Below, in pieces: positions 17 to 15,003 of a stretch of 15,003 bases of DNA (its first letter is position 1; the number at the start of each line of letters is the position of its first letter). The notes under the pieces are model-generated. The model was not told the origin of the DNA, did no database searches, and saw nothing but the letters and a program-made list of their open reading frames with translations. Location of the stretch: contig CAKMNE010000018.1 of NCBI GenBank assembly GCA_927798505.1, forward strand, positions 1 through 15,003, in the 5' to 3' direction. This DNA is from an uncultured Bacteroidales bacterium (GTDB lineage: Bacteria > Bacteroidota > Bacteroidia > Bacteroidales > UBA932). The position numbers and the translations under genes were made by a program.

Positions 17-1504
17 TTACTCATTGTCATAAACAAGCATTGTCTGAGCATTGATTTCATAGTCCGGATGAGGATTCTTCAATACGAACTTGAGAGTATG
101 GTGTCCGCTGGCGAAGCAGTACTTAGAGAAGAGTTCATACTTGCGGGTTATGTAGTCGTAAGGCATCACCCACTCCTCAATCAGCTCGCCGTCGAGGTAG
201 GCCTGAAGCTCTGCCCGGTAGTCGGAATCATCGTGTCCCGTTTTGACCACGCTGCCCTCAACGACTATAGAATTGCCGTCGAACTCAAGTGTAAGACTAT
301 CTGAAAAGCGCTTCTTCAGCACGATCTTATTCACCGGTTTGATACCCTCGAAACTCTGCTCGAAGCGTACCGGCTCGGGAGCCTCCACAGTGAAAGTGAG
401 AACTCCGTCCTGCAGGTCCATAAGTTCAAGATTCCTGCGGCAAACTTCGTTGAGGCTGAGAGTGGTATAAGGGAAAGGATAATCCGCAATCATATCCGCA
501 CCCTTGCGGTACTTCTCCGGAATGGCGTCGTAGCCGTAGATTACGCCCAGAACGCCTGCCGACGAAGCCGGATTGCAGTCCGAATCGTGGCCGCAGCGGG
601 TGGATATATCCATGGTTTTCTCGAAATCCCCCTCTCCGTAGAGCAGGCCCATCACAACATAGGCTGAATTGATGACCGCATCGATGCTGAATCCGTTCCA
701 TACCCCTTCAGGGCAGCCCTTCTCATAAGCATAGAGCTTGTCTATTTCAAACCAGCAGCGCTTCCAGTCCTTCGGATACTTCTTCCAGAAACGGAGCACA
801 TCGTCCATGCAACTGCGGAACTTGGTGCCTTCTGGAATCACTTTCGAAGCCTCGCGCACTATGGTAGGGATGTCGTCGCACACATAGGCGTAGGCGTACA
901 GTGCGCTGATGAAAACACCTCCGTACCAGCCGTCTCCGTAATTCATAATATGTCCTATCCCGTCAGCCAGGGCGGCGGCGCGGTTCGGGCGCCCAGGACA
1001 TAGCATTCCGATGAAATCTGCCTCGATCTGGAAGTCAATGTCGTCGGCGTGAGGATTGTTCATCCAATGGCCCGACTGCGGCGCTCCGATGCCGTTGAGT
1101 ATGTTGTAGCGGGCGGCCTGGTTGGCGTGCCAGAGTTTGTAGTCGGCATGGGCGAAACGCCTTGCATATTCCTCCACCGGGGCATCTATGCCCAGGTCGC
1201 ACATCACTTCAAGGAAGGTCAGGTCCATATAGACATCGTCAAAAAGACCCGGATCCTCGATGAAGGTATCGTAGATATATTCGTCGTACCAGATGATTGG
1301 CTGTTCATCCTGCATCAGTCCGCCTTTGAACTTGAACTCGGTGGGGCCTCCGTAGGTGCATCCTATGGTCTGGGCAAACCATCCGCCGCGGATTTTGTCC
1401 ATCAGGACATCCTCGCTTATGGAAACGGTCTTGCCGTACTCTATGCGCCCGGAACAAGATGCCAGAAGCAGCAGGGCAAACGCTATATGGATTGCTTTCT
1501 TCAT
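17..1504 (-). CDS. ADP-ribosylglycohydrolase-family lipoprotein (single catalytic domain)
   Basis: A 495-residue predicted hydrolase of the ADP-ribosylglycohydrolase/DraG family, which removes ADP-ribosyl groups or cleaves related ribosides with bound Mg2+. The N-terminus is a lipoprotein signal peptide with lipobox LLASC and acylated Cys17. The catalytic domain spans about residues 35-330. Visible family motifs are the N-terminal acidic motif FDDVYMD (88-94), SGHWMNNPHADD (144-155) and the C-terminal metal motif CGHDSDCNPA (304-313). Residues 365-490 form a separate module, probably a beta-sandwich. The protein aligns without large gaps to the C-terminal half of the upstream neighbour (its residues about 669-1160), so the two are paralogues. 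It starts one base after that gene's TAG stop and is the last complete gene of the operon. The expected Thr/Ser after the DSD pair is Cys. Family assignment is strong; substrate is unknown. Confidence 0.88.
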   Translation of the reverse strand: MKKAIHIAFALLLLASCSGRIEYGKTVSISEDVLMDKIRGGWFAQTIGCTYGGPTEFKFKGGLMQDEQPIIWYDEYIYDTFIEDPGLFDDVYMDLTFLEVMCDLGIDAPVEEYARRFAHADYKLWHANQAARYNILNGIGAPQSGHWMNNPHADDIDFQIEADFIGMLCPGRPNRAAALADGIGHIMNYGDGWYGGVFISALYAYAYVCDDIPTIVREASKVIPEGTKFRSCMDDVLRFWKKYPKDWKRCWFEIDKLYAYEKGCPEGVWNGFSIDAVINSAYVVMGLLYGEGDFEKTMDISTRCGHDSDCNPASSAGVLGVIYGYDAIPEKYRKGADMIADYPFPYTTLSLNEVCRRNLELMDLQDGVLTFTVEAPEPVRFEQSFEGIKPVNKIVLKKRFSDSLTLEFDGNSIVVEGSVVKTGHDDSDYRAELQAYLDGELIEEWVMPYDYITRKYELFSKYCFASGHHTLKFVLKNPHPDYEINAQTMLVYDNE

Positions 1505-1505
1505 T

Positions 1506-4500
1506 CTAATTCGTGTAATAAGGGTTAGTCACCGGTTTTTCGGAATAATACTGTATGGCATTGATTCTGAGGAGGTAAACCTTAGGGTTAGGGTTGCGCC
1601 ATACCATCTTCACATGGTGGCGTCCCTCAGGCATGCAGTACTTCCAGGCAGGTTCCAGCTTGCGGGAAGTGCCCCTCATAGGAAGAAGGGATACCTGGTC
1701 GAGCTGTCCGTCGATCCACACCTCGATTTCAGCCACATAATCGTCATCCTGCTCGGCGAGTGCGAACACCTCGGAGCCGACGTGCTTCTTGGCTACCCTG
1801 TTGGCGTAGTCCCTGGAGATGCCGCGCAGGCATACCAGATTGCCCCAAATGCAGAATCCGTTTCCACTGAAGTCAAATTCGTACTCTTTTTCCATCCAGG
1901 CATCCTTCTGGTCGCGGAACACCGGATAGGTATCCACAAAGTTCTGCTCAAGAGGAAGAACACCTATGTGAAGCTGAGGGATGGACACACTCTGAGCGTC
2001 CACCTTGCCTCCGTTACGCTCGATCAGTTGGAGAGCATGATTGTAGGAATAAAGCGAGCCCTTTGCGAGCGAAACGTCAGTTCCTTCGAAATTACTGTCC
2101 CATACCGGCTCCAGAGGCTTGCTCCAGAACTCCGGAATGCCGCTCTTGCCATACATCACGCCGAGCACGCCTCCCACGGTGGCAGGATTGCAGTCCGAAT
2201 CCTGGCCGCAGCGGGTAGCGATTTCCATTGACTTTCCGAAATCGCCGTTTCCGTAAAGCAGACCGATTGCGACATAGGCCGAATTGATCTTTGCGTCAAT
2301 GTTGAAACTCAGGAACACACCCTTCGGGCAGCCCGTGTCGGCACCCCATTTCTTGAGTATTTCAAACCAGCACTGCTTCCAGTCGTCAGGATACTGTTTG
2401 TGGAATTTGCGCACATCGTCTATGCACTGATAGAAGGTACTCTCCTTAGGAATGCCCTGAAGAGCTATGTCCACGATTTCCACAGGGTCGTCGCAGATGA
2501 AGGCGGCCGAATAGAGTCCAGAAACGAAGGCTCCTCCGTAGAAACCGTCTCCGCTGTTCATTATGTGTCCTACCTTATCTGCAATCTCAAGGGCCTGAGG
2601 CACCATGCCCGGAGCCATAAGCCCGATAAAGTCAGCCTCAATCTGGAAGTCCAGGTCGTCTGCGTGAGGGTTGTTGAGCCAATGTCCTGAAGCAGGCGGC
2701 ATTATGCCCTGACGGATGTTGTAGCGTCCGGCCTGATTTGCATGCGCCAAGTGATAGTCGGCGGTCGCGAAAGGGATTGCGATCTGCTCGGCTGTGGCAT
2801 CCAGGCCATATTTCTCGAAGGCCTCGGCAAAGGTCAGGTCATTGTAAATATCGTCGAAAAGGCCTGGTTTGACCTTCCACCAGTACTCCACATAGTCCTC
2901 GCCCCAGCCGATGGGCTGTGAGTCCGGAATAAGGGTGCCCTGATGCTTGAACTCGGTGGGAGCTCCGAAAACAACGCCTATGGTCTGTCCGGCCCATCCA
3001 CCCATAATGCGGTCCATAAGCTCGTCCTTGGACATTGTGACACACTCCACGGGACGAGCCTTGTAAACCTCCAGCTCGGCTATTGAAATGAAGGAAGAAA
3101 CGTTCTTGGTGTATTTGTGCCAGTGTACGAGAACGGCATCGTCACCGATGATGCGCACTCCCTTGGTCGTAACCGGGGCGAAGCGGAAGAGGAACTCTCC
3201 GTTGTGCGGCTGTATGAAGACTTCATCGCTCTGAGGAAGGGCAGGGCTGACGCTGCTGTGAACGTCCACCCACTCGCCGCTGCAATCCAGCACCTGGACT
3301 CTCATATTGGAGTACCATCCTCCGAACTCTTCGAGACAACCGTAGCGGAAAGCGAGCATATCAATGGTCTGAGGCTCGTCCCAGGTGTAGCCGAAGTAGT
3401 CCTGCTTAGGTGCGAGGGACTTTTCGGTAAGGGAATAGAAGGCCGAACCAGGTCCGTCGAGAATACCGTCGTTGATAACGCTGACATCCTTGGCGTAGAA
3501 AGCATGGGACACTGTGGTCCAGCAGCTGTCCAGCACATCGAAATTAGTTTGCTTTGCGAGCGACACTATGGATGAGGCTTTCCGGGCGATGTTTTCTCCC
3601 CTTACCACAAGGTGGAAGTCCTTGGTGATGGTCTGCCTGCCGTCGCTGAGGCTGAGGGTGATGTCATAGTCCCCCGGCTCGGTGGCTACTCCGCTGAGGC
3701 GGCCGCCCTTGAACCTGAGGCCCTTCGGGAGCTTGCCGGCGGTCATTTTCCAGTTGTAGCCGCGGTTGGTCACGCAGGCGAAATCATAGTCCACCTTCTC
3801 CCCCACCACTATGCGCGGGTTAGGGCCTACGCAGAATTCGAGAGGGGCGGCAAAACGGGCGGCCGTATTGATTCTGAACCAGCGCTCTCCGTCTTTTTCA
3901 AACTCCTGTCCTCCGTTCTCCACAATGATCTTTGCGGCCAGTTCGGCGGTTCTGTCGATCAGGTCCTCGATGGAGGCGTCCGGCATATCGTAACGGGTCA
4001 CATTGATGTAGCGGTCATTGAAAGGCTTGGTCCAGTGCGGGAACTGTTCAGGCATAGACCAGGTGGAAGGCACGCTGGCCGCTCCATTGATCACTCCCAG
4101 CAGTCCGCATATGGTCGCGGTCTGGTTGTCGGCATCGAAACCCAGGGCGCAGCCAATGAGCAGGGTCTTCTCTATGTCACCCTGACCGTAGAGCAGGGCG
4201 AGTATTCCCATCGCTCCGTTCAGATCGGCGTTCCATATGGTCTTGGTCTCGTCAGCCTCATCGGTCCAGTATTCCTGCTTGATGACCTTGCGCGCCTGCT
4301 TCCAGTCCTCCGGATACTTGTGATAGAGTTCGAGGCACTGGTCTATGGTGTGGCGGAAGCGGTCTCCCTTCGGAAGATACTCCTTGGAATGCCTCACGAG
4401 GGTCTCTATGTCGCTTTCGAAGAAGGCTTCGGAGTACATTGCTCCATAGACCACGGTAGGAGAGGTAGCCCAGTCGTCGGAAGTGATGCGGGCAGCCCAC

Positions 4501-5030
4501 TCGGAGATGCCTGCCGCATAGGACGGCATACCCGGGGCGGTGTAAGCCCAGATCTCGTTGATGAGCTGAGGGTCGATCTGGAACCAGTGCGGGTTGTAGC
4601 GCTTGTCACCGGTGAAAGGAGGCGTGAGCCCGTAGTGCATGGCTCCGAGGGTGGCGCGGTTTGCAAGCCACACGCGGTCGCGGATATGGTACATCCAACC
4701 CTCGCGAATCTGGGCGTAGGTAGGATGGACACCATATTTCTCCATCATCAGAAGATAGAGGTACTCCACATCCGTATCATCATCGGAGAAGGCTCCGTCC
4801 ACGGCGGTCATCTTGCGTACAGCCTTGTTGAATACGAAAGGCGGTTCACCCGGCTCTTCAATGAATTTGTTCTCATACTCGAGTCCGTAGATATTGCCCA
4901 CCATCTGCCCCAGCCAGGCCCCGGCTATCTTGTCGTGGAGCTCGGTGTAGCTGATTTCGGCTGTCTGCGGTTTGCCCGTGCAGGAGATGGCCAGAACTGC
5001 GGCCAGTGCAGTGTAAAGTATCTTTTTCAT
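1506..5030 (-). CDS. Large lipoprotein with two ADP-ribosylglycohydrolase domains, Ig-like and discoidin-like modules
   Basis: A 1174-residue multidomain hydrolase, far longer than the usual 300-500 residues of the family. Order: lipoprotein signal peptide (lipobox LAISC, Cys17); ADPRGH domain A, about 28-325, with canonical-looking SDDDTD (82-87) and a C-terminal DADNQTAT motif (299-306); a putative Ig domain of the He_PIG type, about 405-477 (LPKGLRF, GRLSGVATEPGDY); a module of about 480-656 resembling an F5/8 type C (discoidin) carbohydrate-binding fold; ADPRGH domain B, about 669-970, with FDDIYND (725-731) and CGQDSDCNPA (941-950); and a C-terminal beta-rich module, about 1010-1160, shared with the next gene. 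Domain B is closer to the downstream paralogue than to domain A. The ATG overlaps the SusD-like stop codon as TAATG, indicating translational coupling. It probably processes the ligand imported by the SusC/D pair. The discoidin assignment is my weakest domain call. Confidence 0.87.
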   Translation of the reverse strand: MKKILYTALAAVLAISCTGKPQTAEISYTELHDKIAGAWLGQMVGNIYGLEYENKFIEEPGEPPFVFNKAVRKMTAVDGAFSDDDTDVEYLYLLMMEKYGVHPTYAQIREGWMYHIRDRVWLANRATLGAMHYGLTPPFTGDKRYNPHWFQIDPQLINEIWAYTAPGMPSYAAGISEWAARITSDDWATSPTVVYGAMYSEAFFESDIETLVRHSKEYLPKGDRFRHTIDQCLELYHKYPEDWKQARKVIKQEYWTDEADETKTIWNADLNGAMGILALLYGQGDIEKTLLIGCALGFDADNQTATICGLLGVINGAASVPSTWSMPEQFPHWTKPFNDRYINVTRYDMPDASIEDLIDRTAELAAKIIVENGGQEFEKDGERWFRINTAARFAAPLEFCVGPNPRIVVGEKVDYDFACVTNRGYNWKMTAGKLPKGLRFKGGRLSGVATEPGDYDITLSLSDGRQTITKDFHLVVRGENIARKASSIVSLAKQTNFDVLDSCWTTVSHAFYAKDVSVINDGILDGPGSAFYSLTEKSLAPKQDYFGYTWDEPQTIDMLAFRYGCLEEFGGWYSNMRVQVLDCSGEWVDVHSSVSPALPQSDEVFIQPHNGEFLFRFAPVTTKGVRIIGDDAVLVHWHKYTKNVSSFISIAELEVYKARPVECVTMSKDELMDRIMGGWAGQTIGVVFGAPTEFKHQGTLIPDSQPIGWGEDYVEYWWKVKPGLFDDIYNDLTFAEAFEKYGLDATAEQIAIPFATADYHLAHANQAGRYNIRQGIMPPASGHWLNNPHADDLDFQIEADFIGLMAPGMVPQALEIADKVGHIMNSGDGFYGGAFVSGLYSAAFICDDPVEIVDIALQGIPKESTFYQCIDDVRKFHKQYPDDWKQCWFEILKKWGADTGCPKGVFLSFNIDAKINSAYVAIGLLYGNGDFGKSMEIATRCGQDSDCNPATVGGVLGVMYGKSGIPEFWSKPLEPVWDSNFEGTDVSLAKGSLYSYNHALQLIERNGGKVDAQSVSIPQLHIGVLPLEQNFVDTYPVFRDQKDAWMEKEYEFDFSGNGFCIWGNLVCLRGISRDYANRVAKKHVGSEVFALAEQDDDYVAEIEVWIDGQLDQVSLLPMRGTSRKLEPAWKYCMPEGRHHVKMVWRNPNPKVYLLRINAIQYYSEKPVTNPYYTN

Positions 5031-6592
5031 TAATCGTTGTATCCTGTATTCTGTTCGAGATTCGGGTTGTCGGCCCTACGCTGGTCAGGGATAGGGAGAA
5101 GTTCCATATAGGCCTGCCCCTCTTCCTTGGCCCACCAGGCCTTGGTGTATTCGCCGAAGCGGATGAGGTCCTGACGGGACCAGCCTTCCATACACAGTTC
5201 GTGCTGGCGCTCGAGAAGGAGATTGTGCAGAGTCAGCTGATCCGCTGTCATAGGCTCAAGGCCTGCCCTTCTACGGATCTGCTGGAACTCTGGAACAGCT
5301 GCGGCATCTGCCGTCCTGCCCTGGCGCACAAGCGCTTCCACATACATCAGAACCACGTCTGAGTAACGCATCAGTATGAAATCGTTTTCCATGCAGATAC
5401 GGTAGGTGTTCAGGGTGCCGTCGGTCTGGTAAGGCCACTTCACGATACGGGCTCCGTCCATCCTGGAAAGACCTGAATGGTACTTGGATTCATCGATTGC
5501 GGAAGGCTCGAGAACATAAGGGATGTAGCTGACGGACTTGTCCGCGTTGATCTGTTTGAGCTTGTACTCCTGTCCATTGTAATCATAGACCTGTCCGTAG
5601 AGCCAGCAGGCGTCCTTTCGGGTGTCGCCGCTCTCGTAGGAGTCGAAGAAGTCAGGCTGGCAAATCATGGAACCGTTCCAGGCGGAGCCCAGGTTGAATG
5701 CCTTGGTGAGGTCGTCGTTGAATGTCATTACCCAAATGTAGAAATATTCTCCCACATTATAGACACTGCTGTAAGGGATGGCAAATATGGCCTCGCTGCC
5801 GTTAACCGCGTTTATTGCAAAATTGGCGGCATAGGTAGGGGTGAGGCTGTAGTTCCCGCTGTCCATAATGTCTTTGCACACAGCCTCGAGCTCAGAGTAA
5901 CGGGCTGTGCCGGTCCATTTCTCAGAGTTGAGATAAATCTTGGCAAGAATGAACTGAGCCATGCCCTTGGTAACGCGGCCGTAGGTCTTTGAAGAGACCG
6001 TTGCTTCGAGATGAGGCAGGCATTCTTCTATTTCATCCTCTATCCACTTCAGCATAAAGGCCCTGTCCTTCTGCTCCGGATAGCCGACCTGGTGCTTGTC
6101 TATGGAGAAAGGCACATTGCCCCAGCAATCGACTGCGAGCAGGTAATAGTAAGTGCGCAGAACCCTCAGGTCGGAAAGAGTCTTGGTCTTGGCTTCGGTG
6201 TCAGGAGTATCCTGAATTACGGCAATGGCGTCGTTGCAGGCGGAAATTCCGTTGAAGCAGAAGTCCCAGCCCAAACGCACCAGCTTGTTGCTTGCCGGAA
6301 TGTCGTGGGACTGCACTTCACCGTAACGCGCTTCCGCCCAGCTGCCTTCGTAAGACTTTGGGATTGCGACCTCGTTGGTGAGCTGCAGGAGCAAAGTGAA
6401 CATACTCTGCTCGTGGCCCCAGTTCTGGAGCATGGTGTAAGGTCTTGCTGTATAGAGGTCCAGAAGTGCAGGGTCGCTGAGGAAGTCGTCCTTCATCATC
6501 TGTGAGTACGGGCGCTCGTCGAGATTGGTGCAGGATGCTGCCAGCAGGGCCGCACCAAGTATGATGTTCTTTATATTCAGTTTCATAGCCAT
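5030..6592 (-). CDS. SusD-like (RagB/SusD family) nutrient-binding outer-membrane lipoprotein
   Basis: A 520-residue SusD homologue, the surface lid that captures ligand over its SusC partner. Evidence: signal peptide with lipobox LAASC and Cys21, followed by TNLDER, whose acidic residues fit a lipoprotein export signal; the SusD helix motif RVLRTYYYLLAVDCWGNVPF (143-162); RYSDVVLMYVEAL (409-421); the ERQHELCMEGW motif (461-471); and the C-terminal LPIPDQ...NPNLEQNTGY (499-518). Length is normal for the family. The first ATG overlaps the SusC stop as TGATG; a second in-frame ATG two codons later is possible, and either start keeps the signal peptide. Ligand is not readable from sequence. The adjoining ribokinase, permease and ADPRGH genes suggest a ribose-containing ligand. 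Confidence 0.95.
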   Translation of the reverse strand: MAMKLNIKNIILGAALLAASCTNLDERPYSQMMKDDFLSDPALLDLYTARPYTMLQNWGHEQSMFTLLLQLTNEVAIPKSYEGSWAEARYGEVQSHDIPASNKLVRLGWDFCFNGISACNDAIAVIQDTPDTEAKTKTLSDLRVLRTYYYLLAVDCWGNVPFSIDKHQVGYPEQKDRAFMLKWIEDEIEECLPHLEATVSSKTYGRVTKGMAQFILAKIYLNSEKWTGTARYSELEAVCKDIMDSGNYSLTPTYAANFAINAVNGSEAIFAIPYSSVYNVGEYFYIWVMTFNDDLTKAFNLGSAWNGSMICQPDFFDSYESGDTRKDACWLYGQVYDYNGQEYKLKQINADKSVSYIPYVLEPSAIDESKYHSGLSRMDGARIVKWPYQTDGTLNTYRICMENDFILMRYSDVVLMYVEALVRQGRTADAAAVPEFQQIRRRAGLEPMTADQLTLHNLLLERQHELCMEGWSRQDLIRFGEYTKAWWAKEEGQAYMELLPIPDQRRADNPNLEQNTGYND

Positions 6593-9504
6593 CAGAATTT
6601 AACGTTAACGCCAAAGGTGAAGGACCTTGTCCTCGGGTAGTAGCTGAGGCCTTCTATGCCCGGAGCCAGTCCGCTGAGGGAAACCTCAGGGTCAACTCCC
6701 GAGTAGCCGGTCAGCACGAAGAGATTCTGTCCTGAGAGATAGACGCTGCAATTCTTCACGAGCGAGGTCTTCGGCACAGGGACATTGTAGGTGACAGTCA
6801 GGTTGTCGAGCTTGAGGTAGCTTGCATCCTCTATATACTTGGACGAATAAGCGTTCTTTCCTGTGTACTCAGGCTCGTCAAGCCAGCTTGCAAGCACGTT
6901 CTTCTGTCCGAATTCGGTGATGTTCTCATAAACCGCCTTCATCTGGTTCAAAACCACTCCGCCAAGGGAGCTGCGAAGCGCGGCGCTGATGGTGAACTGT
7001 CCGATTTCCACGCTGTTGCTCCATCCTATGGTGCAGAAAGGATTGGCATTGCCGAGTTTCACCCAGTCTTTCTCATTGCGCTGCTCCAGGTTTGCGGAGC
7101 CGCTGGACTTGAGCCCAAGATAAACCGGTCCGTAGAAGGTGCCTATTGCCTCGCCCTCAACCAGCCTCTGGCTGTAGCAGGCAAGAGGAGAGTTGAGCCA
7201 GCCAACGCGATACTCCTGTCCTGCAAACTCTTCGTTGGTGAAGGATATGAGCCTGTTCTCGTTGTGGGCAAAGGTGAAGGTGGTGTTCCAGGTTACGCTC
7301 TTGGACTTTACAGGAATGGCATTGAGGGTGAACTCTATGCCGGAGTTGCTGATTTTGCCCACATTGGTGAAGAGGGTGTTGTAGTCATAAGGCGGCACCG
7401 GCACCGTGTAGTTGTAAAGCAGGTCCGTGGTAAGGCGGTAGTAGTAATCCACCGCTCCGCTGATGCGGCCATCCAGCACTTCGTAGTCCAGACCAATGTT
7501 GAACTCCGACTTTTTCTCCCAGGCAAGATCCGGGTTGGCGTTGCTTGCAGGGGCATAGGCTGTCTGCCATTTGCCGTCATAGTAGAAATAACCGTCAGGC
7601 TTTACGAGGAAGAGGGACTTGTAGTTGTCGAAGTCCTGGTTTCCGGTCATACCGAATCCGGCGCGCAGCTTGAGTTCGTTCAGCCAGCTGAGTTCCTGCA
7701 TCCAAGGTTCCTGGGTAAGGCGCCATCCCAGGCTCACTGCCGGGAACCATCCCCATTTCTGGTTAGCTCCGAAACGGCTGGAGCCGTCACGGCGCAGGGA
7801 GGCGGAAACCATATACTTCTCCTTGTAGTTTGCCATCACACGGCCGAAGAAGGCCACATAGCGGTTGCCGTAGCGGCTGGAGCTCATATCTCCCTTGCCG
7901 TTCAGCAGGGCGGTTCCCGCACCTATGTTGTTCACATTGAAGTAGTCGGTGTCGAAACCGTAATTGTACATGTAAGTGGTAAAGGTCTCGGACTGCTCGA
8001 AGGTGTAGCCTGCAATTGCCTGAAGAGCCACTTCCCTGATTTTAGTGCTGTACTGCACAGTGCGCTCGTGCTGGAGGTTGGTCCTTCGGGTATTGTCAAT
8101 CTCGGCGGTTCCCTTCTGGGCCGTTTCACCAGGATAGTAGCGTGTCTTGTAGTCAGTGTAAAGGCTGTTTTTGCTGCCCCAGCTGACGAAGTTGTCCCAT
8201 TTCAGACCCTTCACCGGAAGAATGTTGAGAGTGAAGCGTCCGTTCACGGAAAGATCGTCCACATCGTAGCCGTTCTGACGCTCGTTGAGCATGGCCACAG
8301 GATTGTAGTAATCCATTCCTCCGATGGTGAAATAGCCACCGTTGTCCTCATCGGTTTCATCGTAGATAGGCTCGGTCGGGTTGTGCATGAAGGCCTGACG
8401 GAAGATGCCGGTACGGGTGCCGTTGAATTTGCGCTTGCCGTAACTGAAGTTTCCGTCGAAAGTGAGCCAGCCCTCGAGAGCCTCCTGGTGAATGTTGGTG
8501 CGGAAGAGGAACTTGTTGTTATCGTTGTTTCGCAGCAAACCCTGGTTCTGCTCCACGTTCATAGTGGTTCTATGGGAGAACTTCTCGCTGCCTCCGCTGA
8601 CCGCAACGCTGTGGCGGTGAGAAACCGGAGTGCGGGTAACCTCATTGAACCAGTCTGTCTGGGCGCCGTACTGGTATGCGGCGGCATCAGGAAGATAATT
8701 CTCTACGGTGTAGTTGTACTGCTCCGCAGTCATAGGCACCGCACGCGAGAGCAGGGTCTGCACTGAAGCCTGACCGCGGTACTCGACCGATGTGTGGCCG
8801 GCGCGGGCACGCTTGGTGGTGATAATGATCACGCCGTTGGTTCCGCGGGTTCCGTAAATGGCCGCAGCCGAACCGTCCTTGAGCACATCAATGGTCTCCA
8901 CTTCCTGGAAATTGATGGTCTGCAGGTCCGCTCCGCTGACTCCGTCGATGATGATCAGAGGACCCTGGCCTGCACTGAGGGTATTGGTTCCTCGCAGGAT
9001 GATTTCCATAGAACCGTTAGGGTCTCCTCCGTTAGGATTGGTGATGGAAAGACCGGCCACCTTTCCCTGGAGCATTGCGCTGGCATCGATGTAGGAACCC
9101 TTGTCAAGGGATTCGCTCCTGATGGAAGTAACCGAACCGGTAACCTCCTTCTTGGTGGTGGTTCCGTAACCGATTACCACGGTCTCGTCCAGCATAGTTG
9201 CGGCGGAAACCGGGAGCACTACCGGATAATTGTCCACACCGTCCTTCACGGTGAAAACGGTGTCATCATATCCGAAGAAGGAGACGGTGAAGGAATCGCC
9301 GGTCTTTGCGGCGATTTCGAATTTGCCGTCCATGTCAGCAATCACATAAGGGCTGCCCTTGGTGCTGACCACGCTTGCGCCCGGAAGAATTTCCCCGTCC
9401 GCGCCCTTTACCGCACCGGAAACGGTACGGGTCTGGGCCGAGGCGGTCAGGCCTGCCGCAAAACAGAAGGCCAGAAGCGCTATTATAGTATTTAATCTGT
9501 TCAT
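6592..9504 (-). CDS. SusC/RagA-family TonB-dependent outer-membrane transporter
   Basis: A 970-residue TonB-dependent transporter that, with SusD, moves ligand across the outer membrane using energy from TonB-ExbBD. Domains: signal peptide 1-23 (cleavage after ASA); carboxypeptidase-regulatory-like beta domain, about 27-100; TonB box region DETVVIGYG (106-114); plug domain, about 117-235, carrying the SusC signature EVETIDVLKDGSAAAIYG (201-218) followed by TRGTNGVIIITTK; then a 22-strand-type barrel ending in aromatic Phe (FGVNVKF). There is no N-terminal STN/secretin extension, so no sign of direct anti-sigma signalling; this fits control by the LacI regulator instead. It follows the permease stop by 6 nt and overlaps the SusD start by one base. 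Length is typical to slightly short for SusC proteins. Confidence 0.96.
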   Translation of the reverse strand: MNRLNTIIALLAFCFAAGLTASAQTRTVSGAVKGADGEILPGASVVSTKGSPYVIADMDGKFEIAAKTGDSFTVSFFGYDDTVFTVKDGVDNYPVVLPVSAATMLDETVVIGYGTTTKKEVTGSVTSIRSESLDKGSYIDASAMLQGKVAGLSITNPNGGDPNGSMEIILRGTNTLSAGQGPLIIIDGVSGADLQTINFQEVETIDVLKDGSAAAIYGTRGTNGVIIITTKRARAGHTSVEYRGQASVQTLLSRAVPMTAEQYNYTVENYLPDAAAYQYGAQTDWFNEVTRTPVSHRHSVAVSGGSEKFSHRTTMNVEQNQGLLRNNDNNKFLFRTNIHQEALEGWLTFDGNFSYGKRKFNGTRTGIFRQAFMHNPTEPIYDETDEDNGGYFTIGGMDYYNPVAMLNERQNGYDVDDLSVNGRFTLNILPVKGLKWDNFVSWGSKNSLYTDYKTRYYPGETAQKGTAEIDNTRRTNLQHERTVQYSTKIREVALQAIAGYTFEQSETFTTYMYNYGFDTDYFNVNNIGAGTALLNGKGDMSSSRYGNRYVAFFGRVMANYKEKYMVSASLRRDGSSRFGANQKWGWFPAVSLGWRLTQEPWMQELSWLNELKLRAGFGMTGNQDFDNYKSLFLVKPDGYFYYDGKWQTAYAPASNANPDLAWEKKSEFNIGLDYEVLDGRISGAVDYYYRLTTDLLYNYTVPVPPYDYNTLFTNVGKISNSGIEFTLNAIPVKSKSVTWNTTFTFAHNENRLISFTNEEFAGQEYRVGWLNSPLACYSQRLVEGEAIGTFYGPVYLGLKSSGSANLEQRNEKDWVKLGNANPFCTIGWSNSVEIGQFTISAALRSSLGGVVLNQMKAVYENITEFGQKNVLASWLDEPEYTGKNAYSSKYIEDASYLKLDNLTVTYNVPVPKTSLVKNCSVYLSGQNLFVLTGYSGVDPEVSLSGLAPGIEGLSYYPRTRSFTFGVNVKF

Positions 9505-9510
9505 TTCGTA

Positions 9511-10533
9511 TTAGTTACCGGATACCACAATGAGTCCGAGACCGATGATGAAGAAGAGGAACATCGCGGCCAGGAGACCATAGACCTTCTTGCTTGAGCC
9601 CTTGAACTCCTTCCATATGAATATACCCCAGATGGCGGCCACCATAGGTGCACCCTGACCGAGGGCGTATGAAACGGATGCTCCGGCCTTGCCTGCGGCA
9701 ATGTAGCTCAGCGCGGTACCGAGGCACCATATCATACCTCCGAGCATGCCGACAATGTGAGTCTTCGCATCACCCTTGAAGTAGGCCTTCATAGAGACAG
9801 GCTCGCCCAGGAAAGGCTTCTTCATCACCAGAGGTCCGAAAATGAAATGGCTTGCAAGCACTGCCAGGGAGAATACTACGATTGCGGTGTAAGGTCCAAC
9901 CTTGCCGGCCTCCATATTCGCGAAGTCCTTGAGGTCCATAGCCCTCATCACGAAAGATGAGAAGAAGGACATCACGATTCCCGCAACGAGGGCGAGGATG
10001 ACGCCCTTGCGCTGATCAGCCTTGCTGATGTTGGAGCTTCCCTTCTTGCCGGAAGCCACGCCGTTGAGAATGACGGCAACCACCACGAGAGCAACGCCGA
10101 GTGCAAGAAGAGGAACATTGCTCTTCAAGGCACCCTGAGCCATCTCCACGCGCAGGTTGTTGAATACTCCCAGCACCAGTGCGAGACCGCATCCCAGAGG
10201 GAAGGCAACGGACATACCGGCGATGGAAGTGGATGCGCTGAGAAGAATATTGGAAGCATTGAATATGAAGCCTCCGAGTACTATCCATCCTATGTTGGCA
10301 ATATCAGCCTGTGCGAGATCCTGGAAGAAATGGCGTCCTTCCGTTCCGAAAGAGCCGAGGGTGAGCGCAAGCAGAAGAGAGAAAATCACCATTCCGATTA
10401 CGTAGTCCCAGTAGAAGAGTTCATAGCGCCAACTCTTGGCAGCGGCCTTCTGGGTGTTTCCCCAGGAGCCCCAGCAGAGCATAATGACAAAGCAGAGAAT
10501 AACTGCTAACGGATAACTGTTGACGATTACCAT
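9511..10533 (-). CDS. DMT-superfamily sugar permease (GRP/RhaT/ureide-permease-like), probable ribose transporter
   Basis: A 340-residue polytopic inner-membrane protein with about ten hydrophobic segments, roughly at residues 8-25, 43-62, 81-101, 107-125, 140-161, 177-196, 214-237, 258-277, 284-304 and 318-338. The Trp/Gly-rich CWGSWGNTQK (20-29), the FYWDY segment (40-44) and the short Lys-rich cytoplasmic loop (163-176) fit DMT-superfamily sugar or ureide permeases often annotated as GRP-family sugar transporters in Bacteroidota. Such carriers are secondary transporters. Position between ribokinase (16-nt gap) and SusC (6-nt gap) argues that it brings the released pentose, or possibly a nucleoside, into the cytoplasm, analogous to the permease of the B. 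thetaiotaomicron ribose locus. Substrate is inferred from context only. Confidence 0.85.
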   Translation of the reverse strand: MVIVNSYPLAVILCFVIMLCWGSWGNTQKAAAKSWRYELFYWDYVIGMVIFSLLLALTLGSFGTEGRHFFQDLAQADIANIGWIVLGGFIFNASNILLSASTSIAGMSVAFPLGCGLALVLGVFNNLRVEMAQGALKSNVPLLALGVALVVVAVILNGVASGKKGSSNISKADQRKGVILALVAGIVMSFFSSFVMRAMDLKDFANMEAGKVGPYTAIVVFSLAVLASHFIFGPLVMKKPFLGEPVSMKAYFKGDAKTHIVGMLGGMIWCLGTALSYIAAGKAGASVSYALGQGAPMVAAIWGIFIWKEFKGSSKKVYGLLAAMFLFFIIGLGLIVVSGN

Positions 10534-10549
10534 AAAAAGTGCTGATTAA

Positions 10550-11440
10550 TTATTTGATATCTGACCTGAACGGGATGCTGTCCTGAGCACCCATTTTCTG
10601 AACTGTGAGGGCCGAAGCCTTTGTTGCGAACCCGGCGGCATCGACCAGGCTGCAGCCTTCACTGAGTGCGACACACAGGGCACCGCAGAAGGTGTCACCG
10701 GCAGCGGTAGTATCAACTGCCTTGACTTTGAGAGAAGGAACGAGGGTCCTTGTGCCTTCGCTGATGACAAGGGACCCCTTGCTTCCGAGGGTAACGACTA
10801 CGTCCTTTACGCCGAGTTGCATAAGCTTTTCAACTGCGGCGTCCAGATTGTCCCCGACCCCGCTGAGCAGGGCGGATTCGGTCTGGTTAGGCGTGATAAG
10901 GGAAATATAGCCGAATAATTCATCTGGAAGATGACAGGCAGGAGCCGGATTGAGAATCACATAGACACCCGCCTCATGGGCGATCTTTGCGGCACGGAGC
11001 ACGCTCTCCACCGGAATCTCGAGCTGGAGGATGAGATAGTCCGCACTGCGGATAACATCCGCCACGCTGTCCACGTCTTCAGGAGTAAGGTCGGCATTGG
11101 CTCCGGGAGCCACTGCAATGCAGTTCTCCGCATTGCCGTCCACCAGAATCAGGGCAGTTCCCGACGCCTTGTCGGAACGCAATATGCGGGAGCAGTCTAT
11201 GCCTTCTTTCTGATATCCCGCTATTGCATTGTCACCGAAGATGTCCCTTCCCACCTTGCAGATGAAAGACACATCTGCGCCGAGACGCTGTGCAGCTACT
11301 GCCTGATTTGCTCCCTTTCCCCCGGGGCCCATACGAAATTCTCCCCCAAGCACGGTCTCACCAGGCTTGGGAAGTCTGTCGCCTTTGATCGTCATATCGG
11401 TATTGCTGCTTCCGATAACGACTACTTTAGCTTTATGCAT
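10550..11440 (-). CDS. rbsK: Ribokinase (PfkB family)
   Basis: A 296-residue cytoplasmic kinase converting D-ribose and ATP to ribose 5-phosphate, feeding the pentose phosphate pathway. Length is close to the ~300 residues of ribokinases. Motifs: N-terminal sugar-binding GSSNTD (10-15); PfkB signature 1 GPGGKGANQA (38-47); NPAPA (164-168); PNQTE (184-188); TLGSKGS (217-223); and signature 2 DTTAAGDTFCG (243-253) with catalytic base Asp249 and the anion hole AAGD. The GGKGANQA form is characteristic of ribokinase rather than fructokinase or 2-keto-3-deoxygluconate kinase. It is the first gene of the operon, preceded by an ~84-nt leader with an operator-like dyad. It anchors the assignment of the locus to ribose use. 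A related pentose, deoxyribose or a nucleoside remains a possible alternative substrate. Confidence 0.93.
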   Translation of the reverse strand: MHKAKVVVIGSSNTDMTIKGDRLPKPGETVLGGEFRMGPGGKGANQAVAAQRLGADVSFICKVGRDIFGDNAIAGYQKEGIDCSRILRSDKASGTALILVDGNAENCIAVAPGANADLTPEDVDSVADVIRSADYLILQLEIPVESVLRAAKIAHEAGVYVILNPAPACHLPDELFGYISLITPNQTESALLSGVGDNLDAAVEKLMQLGVKDVVVTLGSKGSLVISEGTRTLVPSLKVKAVDTTAAGDTFCGALCVALSEGCSLVDAAGFATKASALTVQKMGAQDSIPFRSDIK

Positions 11441-11475: not shown

Positions 11476-11499
11476 GGTTGCGATAACGATTGCGCTACC
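11476..11499. promoter_or_regulatory. Operator-like dyad in the leader of the ribokinase operon
   Basis: Arms GGTTGCG (11476-11482) and CGCTACC (11493-11499) are inverted with one mismatched pair. The right arm includes ATTGCGCTAC (11489-11498), which matches 8 of 10 positions of the perfect palindrome near the repressor gene. It would lie about 25-48 nt downstream of the predicted operon start site, a position suited to a roadblock operator. The transcript could also fold here as a 7-bp stem with a 10-nt loop, but no U-run follows, so it is not an intrinsic terminator. Confidence 0.5.
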
Positions 11500-11631: not shown

Positions 11632-12627
11632 ATGAAAGAGACCTTATCATCAATGGCAGAGAGACTTGGCTGTTCCGCCACAACTATTTCACGGGTTTTG
11701 AGCGGAAAGGCCGAAAAGTATCGAATCAGCGAAGCTACGGTGAAGGCCGTATTGCGCGAAGCCCGCAGGTGCAACTACACCCCGAGCGCGACCGCGCAAA
11801 TTTTGCGCACTAAAAAATCCAACACCATAGGTCTTTTGCTGCCATCCGTCTCAAACCCATATTTCGCCGATATGGCAAGCGTGATTATCTCCGAACTGTC
11901 GGACAGCAACTTCACCACAATAGTCGTGGACACTATGGAAAGCGAGCAGAAGCTCAACGAGAGTGCCCGCTCCCTGATTTCCCGTCAGGTTGACGGACTG
12001 ATTGCAGTTCCTTGCGGAGAAAACGGAGAGGAGATGGAGATGCTCAGCGGTCACACCCCGCTGGTGCTCATTGACAGATATTACGAAAACACCTCCCTGC
12101 CCTTTGTCACCACCAACAACTATCAGGGAGGACTGGACGCAACGAAACATCTGCTGAGCCGTGGACACAGCAGGATCACCTGCATCCAGGGAGTGCAGAG
12201 CTCTATGCCCAACAAGGAAAGGGTAAAAGGCTATTGCAGGGCTATGGAGGAAGCCGGGCTGGCGGAGAACATCAATATCGTTGGCAACGAGTTCTCGGTC
12301 CAGAACGGTTATCTGGAGGCAAAGCTGCTGATGAGCAGGGAAATAAGGCCGACCGCCATATTCGCCCTGAGCAATACCATTATGCTGGGCGCGCTGAAGG
12401 CAATACGGGAGGCGGGACTCAGCATCCCGCAGGACGTCGCCCTCATATCCTTCGACAACAATCTGTATATGGACTATATGACTCCTTCCATCACCCGCAT
12501 CAGCCAGCCTGTGGAGGATATGTCAAAGCTTGCCGTGAAAATACTTCTCGACAAGCTTAACGGAGAATCAAACTGCAACTCCCAGCTGAGGCTTTCGCCT
12601 ATGATGGTGGCGGGAGAATCAGCCTGA
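11632..12627 (+). CDS. LacI/GalR-family transcriptional regulator of the ribose-type operon
   Basis: A 331-residue DNA-binding repressor of normal family length. The N-terminal helix-turn-helix is at about residues 3-25 (LSSMAERLGCSATTISRVLSG), the hinge helix at about 49-60 (YTPSATAQILRT), and a periplasmic-binding-protein-like effector core follows, with NPYFADM (75-81), DRYYEN (148-153), GHSRITCIQG (178-187), the ALSNTIMLGAL segment (245-255) and SFDNN (273-277). The effector fold suggests sensing of a sugar or sugar phosphate, plausibly ribose, which is inference. Divergent orientation and shared control region make the six-gene operon the likely target, and palindromes over its own promoter indicate autorepression. 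The ATG lacks a Shine-Dalgarno sequence, as usual in Bacteroidota. The gene ends one base from the convergent oxidoreductase gene. Confidence 0.93.
   Translation: MKETLSSMAERLGCSATTISRVLSGKAEKYRISEATVKAVLREARRCNYTPSATAQILRTKKSNTIGLLLPSVSNPYFADMASVIISELSDSNFTTIVVDTMESEQKLNESARSLISRQVDGLIAVPCGENGEEMEMLSGHTPLVLIDRYYENTSLPFVTTNNYQGGLDATKHLLSRGHSRITCIQGVQSSMPNKERVKGYCRAMEEAGLAENINIVGNEFSVQNGYLEAKLLMSREIRPTAIFALSNTIMLGALKAIREAGLSIPQDVALISFDNNLYMDYMTPSITRISQPVEDMSKLAVKILLDKLNGESNCNSQLRLSPMMVAGESA
11794..11808. promoter_or_regulatory. Perfect palindrome inside the regulator gene (possible auxiliary operator)
   Basis: GCGCAAA (11794-11800), one central base, and TTTGCGC (11802-11808) form a perfect inverted repeat in the codons for the hinge helix, residues about 54-59. 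It carries the same GCGCAA half-site as the two promoter operators and its centre lies about 193 bp from the nearer one, a workable looping distance. Coincidence with conserved hinge codons cannot be excluded. Confidence 0.4.
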
Positions 12628-12628
12628 A

Positions 12629-14017
12629 CTATTTTTCGTTGAGATAATCCCTTATCGCGGCAGCGGCCTTGCGGCCTGCGCCCATGGCGAGGATGACAGT
12701 GGCGGCGCCTGTAACTGCATCGCCTCCCGCGAACACTCCTTCACGGGTGGTGGCTCCCCTTTCGTCTGCGACTATGCCTCCCCTGCGGGTGGTCTGCAGG
12801 CCATCTGTAGTATTGGCAATCAGCGGGTTAGGCGAAGTGCCGAGGGCCATTATGACTGTCTCGGTCTCAATTTCGAACTCGGATCCCGGGATGACCACAG
12901 GTGAGCGGCGGCCCGACTCATCCGGCTCACCGAGCTCCATGCGCACGCAGCGCAGGGCCCGCACCCATCCGTTCTCGTCTCCCAGCACCTCGACCGGGTT
13001 GGTGAGCATATCGAAAATGATGCCGTCCGCCTTGGCGTGGTGCACTTCCTCGCGGCGCGCCGGCAGTTCGTTTTCCGTGCGGCGATAGACGATATGCACC
13101 TCAGCCCCGAGGCGAAGAGCTGTGCGCGCCGCGTCCATAGCCACATTGCCTCCTCCCACTACGCAAACCTTGCGGCCGGCGTGGATAGGGGTGAGATAGT
13201 CCTCGCGGTAGGCCTTCATCAGGTTGTTGCGGGTGAGGAACTCGTTGGCGGAGAAGACGCCGTTGCAGTTCTCGCCCGGGATGCCCATGAATTTCGGAAG
13301 GCCCGCTCCGGACCCTACGAACACGGCCTTGAACCCTTCCTTGTCGAAGAGATCGTCTATGGTCAGGGTTCGACCTATGATGACATCCGTCTCGATCTTC
13401 ACGCCAAGCTGGCGCACCTCATCTATTTCGTGCGCAAGCACCGTGTCCTTAGGGAGGCGGAACTCGGGGATGCCGTAAACCAGCACGCCGCCAACCTTGT
13501 GAAGGGCTTCGAATATGGTGACGTCGTAGCCCCATTTCGCGAGGTCACTCGCGCAGGCAAGACCTGCCGGGCCGGAGCCTACTATTGCCACCTTTTCTCC
13601 CTTGCCGACCTTCTCCACTTCCGCCTTTGGAGCCACTCCGTTCTCGCGGCACCAGTCGGCCGCAAAGCGCTCCAGGTTGCCGATTGCGACGCTCTCGCCC
13701 TTGACGCCGAGCACGCAGCTGCCCTCACACTGGGTTTCCTGCGGGCACACACGGCCACACACTGCAGGAAGAGAGGAATCCACGGCTATGATGCCGGCGG
13801 CTCCAAGCACATCCCCTTCCTTGATTTTCTCTATGAATTCAGGAATGCTGATGCCTACCGGACAGGCGGCAACGCAGCGCGGGTTCTTGCAGTGAAGGCA
13901 CCTTGCGGCCTCCTGCTGAGCCTCCTCAAGATTGAATCCGAGGCTTACCTCATCGAAATTGCAGGCCCTCACCTTAGGGTCCTGCTCCCTGACCTTTGTT
14001 CTTGGTGCTCTTACCAT
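12629..14017 (-). CDS. nfnB: NfnB/GltD-type NAD(P)H oxidoreductase, large flavoprotein iron-sulfur subunit
   Basis: A 462-residue cytoplasmic flavoprotein of the glutamate synthase small-subunit family, commonly annotated as NADPH-dependent glutamate synthase. Cysteines for [4Fe-4S] clusters are at 40, 43, 48, 52 and 87, 91, 97, 101. An FAD-binding VAIVGSGPAGL (143-153) and NADP-binding VVGGGNVAMD (286-295) followed by YRR (311-313) are visible, as is the closing GGDAVTGA FAD motif (431-438). The preceding gene encodes the NfnA-type subunit and overlaps it by 7 nt. That pairing, with no GltB large subunit in view, points to an NADH-dependent ferredoxin:NADP+ oxidoreductase (Nfn) or SudAB-like complex rather than true glutamate synthase. 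In Nfn the pair can couple NADH and reduced ferredoxin to NADP+ reduction by electron bifurcation. No functional link to the ribose locus is apparent. Confidence 0.88.
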   Translation of the reverse strand: MVRAPRTKVREQDPKVRACNFDEVSLGFNLEEAQQEAARCLHCKNPRCVAACPVGISIPEFIEKIKEGDVLGAAGIIAVDSSLPAVCGRVCPQETQCEGSCVLGVKGESVAIGNLERFAADWCRENGVAPKAEVEKVGKGEKVAIVGSGPAGLACASDLAKWGYDVTIFEALHKVGGVLVYGIPEFRLPKDTVLAHEIDEVRQLGVKIETDVIIGRTLTIDDLFDKEGFKAVFVGSGAGLPKFMGIPGENCNGVFSANEFLTRNNLMKAYREDYLTPIHAGRKVCVVGGGNVAMDAARTALRLGAEVHIVYRRTENELPARREEVHHAKADGIIFDMLTNPVEVLGDENGWVRALRCVRMELGEPDESGRRSPVVIPGSEFEIETETVIMALGTSPNPLIANTTDGLQTTRRGGIVADERGATTREGVFAGGDAVTGAATVILAMGAGRKAAAAIRDYLNEK

Positions 14018-14853
14018 TGCATTGCCTCCTTTGCCTTTGTTTCTTCGGTTTTGTATTGTCCCTGACGGCGCATGGCCTCATCGAAATCCACGAGGGCACC
14101 GTCAAACTCAGGGCCGTCAACGCAGGCAAACATGGTCTTTCCGCCAACGCTCACACGGCAAGCGCCGCACATTCCGGTGCCGTCCACCATCAGCGTGTTG
14201 AGGCTGACTGTGACAGGGATGCCGAGCCTGGTGCAGGCGAGAGTGCTGAATTTCATCATTATCATAGGCCCGATTGCGACCGCCCGGTCGAAATGGTGAC
14301 CTTCCGCGACAAGCTTTTCGATCATTGCCGTTCCCACACCCTTGAAGCCCTTGGAGCCGTCGTCAGTGCAGATATGAAGCTCCGAGCAGACGGAGGCCAT
14401 CTCTTCGGTGTAGATGAGAAGGCTTTCGTTGCGGGCGCCTATGATGACTTCGACGTGGGCTCCGCGCTCGTGAAGCCACTTTGCCTGGGGATAGACCGGT
14501 GCGGTGCCTACGCCTCCGGCGATGAATACATAGCTCTTTGAAGAAAGCTCTTCGTCGGAGAGTTCCACGAATTCGGATGCTTTTCCGAGAGGGCCTACGA
14601 CATCGGCAAAGGCGTCACCGGCCTCCATTGCAACAATCCGCGCGCTTGAGGCTCCGATTTTCTGTGTGACTATGGTAACCGTAGCGTTTTCGCGATCGTA
14701 GTCGCTGATTGTGAGGGGAATTCTCTCCCCTGTTTCATCTGTCCTGACTATCAGAAACTGACCGGGCAAAGCCGCTGCGGCCAGCCTCGGAGCCCGCACC
14801 ACCATCCTGCAAATGGTTGGTGTAAGCATCTCTTTCTTTAGGATTGTGTACAT
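14011..14853 (-). CDS. nfnA: NfnA-type FAD/[2Fe-2S] NAD(H)-binding subunit (sulfide/dihydroorotate dehydrogenase-like)
   Basis: A 280-residue ferredoxin-reductase-fold subunit. An FAD-binding barrel is at about 1-98 with RIPLTISD (44-51); an NAD-binding domain at about 105-215 has GGVGTAPVYPQ (113-123); and the C-terminal [2Fe-2S] region DGTGMCGACRV continues to a third Cys (Asp224, Cys229, Cys232, Cys244). The Asp plus three-Cys pattern is that described for the Nfn small subunit. It precedes and overlaps the large subunit, as in other nfn pairs. The first ATG is favoured because MYTILKKEML matches the usual N-terminus of the family. A -7 element sits only 8 nt upstream, so the transcript may be almost leaderless. 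PyrK-like electron transfer is the main alternative, but the gltD-like partner argues for Nfn. Confidence 0.87.
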   Translation of the reverse strand: MYTILKKEMLTPTICRMVVRAPRLAAAALPGQFLIVRTDETGERIPLTISDYDRENATVTIVTQKIGASSARIVAMEAGDAFADVVGPLGKASEFVELSDEELSSKSYVFIAGGVGTAPVYPQAKWLHERGAHVEVIIGARNESLLIYTEEMASVCSELHICTDDGSKGFKGVGTAMIEKLVAEGHHFDRAVAIGPMIMMKFSTLACTRLGIPVTVSLNTLMVDGTGMCGACRVSVGGKTMFACVDGPEFDGALVDFDEAMRRQGQYKTEETKAKEAMQW

Positions 14854-14861
14854 ATCGGCGC

Positions 14862-14869
14862 CAAAGATA
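14862..14869 (-). promoter_or_regulatory. Predicted -7 element of the nfn operon
   Basis: On the minus strand TATCTTTG matches TAnnTTTG exactly and ends 8 nt before the nfnA ATG. No TTTG is present at the expected -33 spacing, so the call rests on the -7 box alone. A start site near 14856 would give a leader of only a few bases. Confidence 0.45.
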
Positions 14870-14892
14870 CTTCATTTTTGAATTATTTCGTG

Positions 14893-14900
14893 TATATTTG
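14893..14900 (+). promoter_or_regulatory. Predicted -7 element of the tRNA-Arg gene
   Basis: TATATTTG matches the Bacteroidota -7 consensus exactly, 19 nt before the mature tRNA 5' end. The nearest upstream TTTG (14877-14880) is only 12 nt away, too close for the usual -33 spacing, so the upstream element is not recognisable. Confidence 0.5.
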
Positions 14901-14919
14901 CAGTCCAAAAGTTAATGAT

Positions 14920-14993
14920 GGTTCCGTAGCTCAGCTGGATAGAGCAACAGCCTTCTAAGCTGTGGGTCACGCGTTCGAATCGCGTCGGAATCA
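14920..14993 (+). tRNA. trnR: tRNA-Arg, anticodon UCU
   Basis: A complete 74-nt cloverleaf reads arginine AGA codons. Acceptor arms GGTTCCG (14920-14926) and CGGAATC (14986-14992) pair with one G-U. The D stem is GCTC/GAGC, the anticodon stem ACAGC/GCTGT encloses loop CTTCTAA with anticodon TCT at 14954-14956, and the T stem ACGCG/CGCGT encloses TTCGAAT. The discriminator base is A14993. The 3' CCA is not encoded, so it must be added by the CCA-adding enzyme. Confidence 0.96.
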
Positions 14994-15003
14994 CTTCTTC
15001 AAA

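Follow-up and report, generated by a model that had tools for sequence, protein, structure and literature searches.

The window, i.e. the whole stretch of DNA that was analysed (15 003 bases), is exactly one contig and carries six genes on the minus strand in the order ribokinase, DMT-type permease, SusC, SusD, long ADPRGH and short ADPRGH (S), with a LacI-family gene in divergent orientation (Table 1). The six genes are separated by 1, 6 or 16 bases or overlap by one base. From family matches and this tight spacing they are predicted to form one operon, in which the SusC/SusD pair stands together with the ribokinase and the DMT permease, as the first-pass annotation had described (SusC/D, ribokinase, permease and ADPRGH lipoproteins beside a LacI gene). 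That annotation had counted two ADPRGH lipoproteins; two proteins are indeed encoded, but the catalytic domains number three, because the 1174-residue protein holds two PF03747 domains (D1 and D2).

Table 1. Predicted features of the window (positions in bases).
Feature	Position	Strand	Remarks
Ribokinase (PfkB family), first operon gene	10550..11440	-	TIGR02152 356.9 bits, cut-off 299.65
DMT-type sugar permease, RusT-like by context	9511..10533	-	PF07168, PF07857, PF06800 above cut-off
SusC-type TonB-dependent outer-membrane importer	6592..9504	-	TIGR04056 688 bits, cut-off 368
SusD-type lipoprotein	5030..6592	-	PF07980 88.4 bits, cut-off 23.1
Long ADPRGH lipoprotein, 1174 aa, two PF03747 domains	1506..5030	-	D1 4065-4922, D2 2130-3002, Ig-like domain between
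Short ADPRGH lipoprotein (S), 495 aa	17..1504	-	One PF03747 domain and C-terminal jelly-roll domain
Candidate LacI-type operator	11479..11496	-	39-56 bases upstream of ribokinase start; 14/18 consensus positions
LacI-family regulator, nearest RbsR	11632..12627	+	NF047341 217.5 bits, below cut-off 382

Base 1 of the window is the contig end and lies 16 bases past the last gene. The six genes seen at first pass are there, but the locus as judged from its relatives is larger: the contig end truncates the predicted operon at a point where relatives continue with an esterase gene directly downstream of S and mostly then a gene for a DUF4595-like lipoprotein. Positions 12629-14994 carry adjacent NADPH-dependent glutamate synthase-like and dihydroorotate dehydrogenase B-like genes, followed by a tRNA-Arg gene; the same pair adjoins the locus in L005 (uncultured Bacteroidales bacterium), which is, by name, the nearest locus found.

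Genome contigs were scanned with the long ADPRGH, which gave 28 loci, 21 of them spanning the whole region; gene labels in the counts were assigned by BLAST, a Terriglobia contig (L018) was excluded and L008 was cut off. SusC, SusD, three ADPRGH domains, permease and esterase were present in 21/21 spanning loci and the ribokinase in 19/21, its absence from two counting against the reading preferred below. Fourteen of the 21 have the order ribokinase-permease-SusC-SusD-D1-D2-S-esterase-DUF4595, two (L006, L007) have this order without the ribokinase, and the order in the other five (L003, L014, L016, L022, L023, several of them named as if from lakes or caves) is ribokinase-SusC-SusD-D1-D2-S-esterase-esterase-permease. 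A fused D1-D2 protein occurs in the window and in L001, L002, L005 and L015. Gene order at these loci appears to be conserved more than by chance. The excluded contig L018 carries three ADPRGH domains (two D1 homologues and one D2 near genes for TPR-repeat proteins) and no SusCD or ribokinase labels, which also counts against the preferred reading. Between the window and L005, SusC (62 % identical) and SusD (50 %; both within 5030-9504) differ more than the flanking genes (83-96 %; permease 96 %, D2 93 %, gltA-like gene 95 %), and the SusC/SusD pair seems, from these identities, to have been exchanged or to be evolving much faster than its flanks.

For the regulatory region, an operator consensus was derived from L013 and scored against shuffled sequences (for the window, 95 % of shuffles at 12). 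Eight of 21 upstream regions exceeded their own 95 % shuffle limit, comprising 8/11 with a LacI-labelled neighbour and 0/10 without; in L015 the best site lies far upstream. A fixed limit of 15/18 was passed by 5/21 upstream regions and 0/21 SusC control stretches, and the window site (14) fails it. Because the consensus came from one of the tested regions, the comparison is partly circular and the signal is suggestive only; the palindrome upstream of the ribokinase gene is a candidate LacI-type operator. No Bacteroides-type promoter pattern was found between the ribokinase and LacI genes in the window.

The kinase passes the equivalog cut-off for ribokinase (Table 1), and every solved sequence matching it at E below 1e-30 carries the name ribokinase (15/15). 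Seven positions, which we take to be the contact and catalytic residues of ribokinase, are identical in 31/31 homologues. By using the permease as anchor, which is present in 13/395 genomes of a phylum sample and 35/295 of an order sample (own genome included), its neighbourhoods were tallied at 50 of the 52 separate sites that lie in other genomes, leaving out G684:C200 and G437:C31 (L083, with ribokinase, permease and ADPRGH). Genes on the same strand within seven listed neighbours were counted, and nucleoside hydrolases were recognised by BLAST match to six PF01156-confirmed proteins. Among the 50 loci, ribokinase was found in 33, nucleoside hydrolase in 16, ADPRGH in 19 and SusC in six; five of the 19 (L085, L150, L155, L165, L166) are of the main locus type. 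A nucleoside hydrolase or an ADPRGH occurs in 26 loci and both in nine; neither is near the permease in 24/50, which counts against the preferred reading. One locus (L154) shows the rus-like order ribokinase-nucleoside hydrolase-permease-SusC-SusD. The window itself holds no nucleoside hydrolase gene and has genes for ADPRGH-fold enzymes instead.

In Bacteroides thetaiotaomicron, genes from BT2804 onward are listed, in the excerpt available of PMC10434189, as ribokinase, TonB-dependent receptor, SusD, DUF4969 protein, nucleoside hydrolase and multidrug DMT transporter permease. BT2803-2809 are the Rus PUL, required for ribose use, and RusT is the proposed carrier of free ribose, according to the corresponding part of PMC12596196. 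Because of this rus-like gene content, the hydrolases near the permease and the kinase residues unchanged in 31/31 homologues, ribose is well supported, and strongly predicted, as the sugar. The first-pass view, in which the locus belongs to the rus-type ribose PULs and ADPRGH-fold proteins occupy the position of the ribose-releasing hydrolase, is supported by the rus gene list, the permease loci and the kinase residues.

The ADPRGH proteins match PF03747 with 136.5 and 218.7 bits (curated cut-off 26.2). Sequence profiles compared with solved structures gave motif-level matches only for A1 (best E 0.00036, with chance cytochrome matches) and no match up to E 1 for A2, so that a fold comparison was needed. 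In a comparison of structure models, S and D1 both came closest to the ARH3 fold and belong to the PF03747 fold; confidence in the D1 model is moderate (pLDDT 70, with much of the chain beyond residue 460 below 50). The acidic motifs DD (76/76 domains) and DxD (75/76), presumably the metal-site residues of ARH3, are kept and are invariant in A1 and A2. The canonical G..MR loop, which we take to bind the ADP part in ADP-ribosylhydrolases, was found in 0/76 domains as against 12/13 canonical proteins, and the TH motif in 0/76 as against 11/13; the canonical set was drawn from the 20 loci L117-L136, of which 13 were used and seven discarded for want of a central ORF matching D[TS]D[TNS].

Both window ADPRGH proteins have a Cys after the signal sequence, and a crude lipobox pattern was found in most homologues (S 23/26, D2 20/25, D1 12/21). 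The enzymes are probably exported as lipoproteins, in line with their first-pass placement outside the cytoplasm. A quick-method tree with flagged long branches, built from 106 domains, separates D1, D2 and S into one group apiece, whichever of the two locus types they come from (support 99 for D2, 94 for S and only 61 for D1), and places the canonical ADPRGHs outside (100). That these three separate enzymes are kept side by side suggests three different bonds. We know of no enzyme of the D1/D2/S branch that has been assayed.

The domains lack the usual ADP-ribosylhydrolase motifs, and ribose is therefore probably freed from another compound than ADP-ribose. The opposite reading, that the nutrient is ADP-ribosylated protein, poly(ADP-ribose) or free ADP-ribose and that the ADPRGHs perform the ARH reaction outside the cytoplasm, can draw on the ARH3-like fold of S and D1, the retained metal acids, a PF03747 score well above the cut-off and the ribokinase in the operon. 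It conflicts with the loss of both motifs in all 76 domains, accords poorly with motif-level matches to solved ARH and DraG proteins, and leaves the esterase unexplained. Moreover, no phosphatase, pyrophosphatase or nucleotidase gene is found among the conserved operon genes of the spanning relatives; such enzymes could be encoded elsewhere. We regard this reading as quite unlikely, and ADP-ribose as a disfavoured source on present sequence evidence. The first-pass proposal of ADP-ribosylated protein, poly(ADP-ribose) or a nucleotide cofactor thus found no support, given the missing motifs, the lack of a phosphohydrolase and an esterase that is always present where the contig reaches; its further option, "another ribofuranoside", appears to be the best fit among those it named.

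A feruloyl-esterase-like gene directly follows S, the third ADPRGH domain, in 26/26 relatives with room for it. PF00756 was confirmed in the three such esterases checked, and the closest solved proteins to that of L005 are ferulic acid esterases (E 1.1e-35 to 7xrt). The motif G[YFH]SMG[GA] is found in 33/33 esterase homologues over 400 residues and a His motif in 29/33. No match to the esterase was found in the window's own genome, which counts against the preferred reading and shows little, because this genome is only 65 % complete. From these associations a non-ADP, acylated ribofuranoside is predicted with moderate confidence as the ribose source; the ARH fold hints, by analogy, that the alpha-anomer of the riboside might be cleaved.

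Two other sources have to be weighed against an acylated ribofuranoside. A nucleoside, a nucleic acid or a small cofactor riboside (including alpha-ribazole) could be the substrate, with the ADPRGHs acting as N-ribosidases that either complement or replace nucleoside hydrolases. This would account for the nine permease loci with both enzymes, for L156 (five nucleoside hydrolase homologues, one ADPRGH, ribokinase and permease), for the main-type locus L020, in which a PF01156 nucleoside hydrolase gene lies directly before the ribokinase gene, and for the metallophosphoesterase gene that adjoins an ADPRGH gene in L080. It would, however, leave unexplained both the esterase and the accessory domains that resemble carbohydrate-binding ones, and assign three separate enzymes to one simple bond, and we consider it unlikely.

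The other possibility is a sugar other than ribose, such as a feruloylated plant furanoside (arabinofuranose, apiose), with a kinase that takes another pentose. The likeness of the esterase to ferulic acid esterases speaks for it, as do the many relatives that are rumen MAGs by title and the occurrence of S-like enzymes with plant-glycan hydrolases. Ribokinase was found nearby in 8/19 loci anchored on S-like proteins and was absent from 11/19 (L070-L072, L082, L084 and L100-L105, by label), which counts against the preferred reading; some of these ribokinase-less loci carry GH26, GH94, GH106 or FGE-sulfatase-like genes, and the branch may therefore act on other furanosides or glycosides. The closest D1 homologues beyond the locus type (L075-L078) likewise count against it, with ribokinase in 0/4 and alpha-amylase-like genes adjoining two, and in a distant D1-like group only one of 14 (L079) combines ribokinase with permease and nucleoside hydrolase. 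On gene neighbourhood, ribose is less firmly linked to loci outside the main locus type. For the locus itself, a plant furanoside is at odds with the ribokinase equivalog and its key residues, the RbsR-like regulator, the nucleoside hydrolase links of the permease loci and the lack of arabinose isomerase and ribulokinase among the labelled conserved locus genes; it is judged quite improbable.

We lean, by a modest degree, towards a rus-type ribose SusCD operon in which ARH-fold glycosidases and an esterase free ribose from an acylated non-ADP ribofuranoside. SusC and SusD would import the ribose-bearing compound, and the feruloyl-esterase-like protein of the relatives would strip acyl groups and so assist D1, D2 and S. 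These ARH-fold, probably metal-dependent lipoprotein glycosidase domains would liberate D-ribose outside the cytoplasm; the free sugar would cross the inner membrane through the DMT permease and be converted by the ribokinase to ribose-5-phosphate, under the control of an RbsR-like repressor. To our knowledge, no common acylated ribose glycan has been described, which counts against this reading.

By its conserved gene content the operon is a real, conserved rus variant, predicted to be new, with ARH-fold enzymes and an esterase in place of the rus nucleoside hydrolase; the ARH-fold enzymes may be a new type of glycosidase. A wider proposal, which we put forward tentatively and hold to be rather doubtful, is that the three domains are new, uncatalogued, metal-dependent secreted ribofuranosidases that, with the feruloyl-type esterase, degrade an unrecognised acylated ribose-containing glycan encountered by gut, rumen and freshwater Bacteroidota. 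If true, a signalling-reversal fold would have been repurposed for glycan degradation. PF03747 genes are annotated as ADP-ribosylglycohydrolases, which steers readers to signalling reversal, and at least 7869 proteins match S at E ≤ 0.001, a count that leaves their motif status aside. The present branch is conserved, exported, without the canonical motifs and partly co-located with ribose-uptake genes. Its confirmation would correct annotations, introduce a further type of glycosidase and suggest a ribose source that bears esters, for which we know of no earlier search. Some rus variants are said to be listed with ADPRGHs by Glowacki et al. (2020); no ribose PUL containing such proteins was found in titles and abstract starts of the open-licence literature, which is no proof of novelty.

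Compared with rus of B. thetaiotaomicron (BT2803-2809), the window shares ribokinase, SusC-type receptor, SusD and DMT permease, the likeness being one of gene content; a DUF4969 protein and a nucleoside hydrolase are listed for rus in the excerpt of PMC10434189, and three ADPRGH domains are encoded in the window. The relatives of the window locus have in addition a PF00756 esterase and a DUF4595 protein, unlike rus as listed there. With the ADP-ribosylhydrolases ARH3 and DraG (PF03747) the domains share the fold and the metal acids; they differ in lacking the canonical G..MR and TH motifs and in the predicted export of the present proteins as lipoproteins with extra beta-domains, and identity is 14 %. 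With CE1-type feruloyl esterases (PF00756) the product of the gene after S in relatives, which lies outside the window, shares the catalytic domain and differs by an extra C-terminal half.
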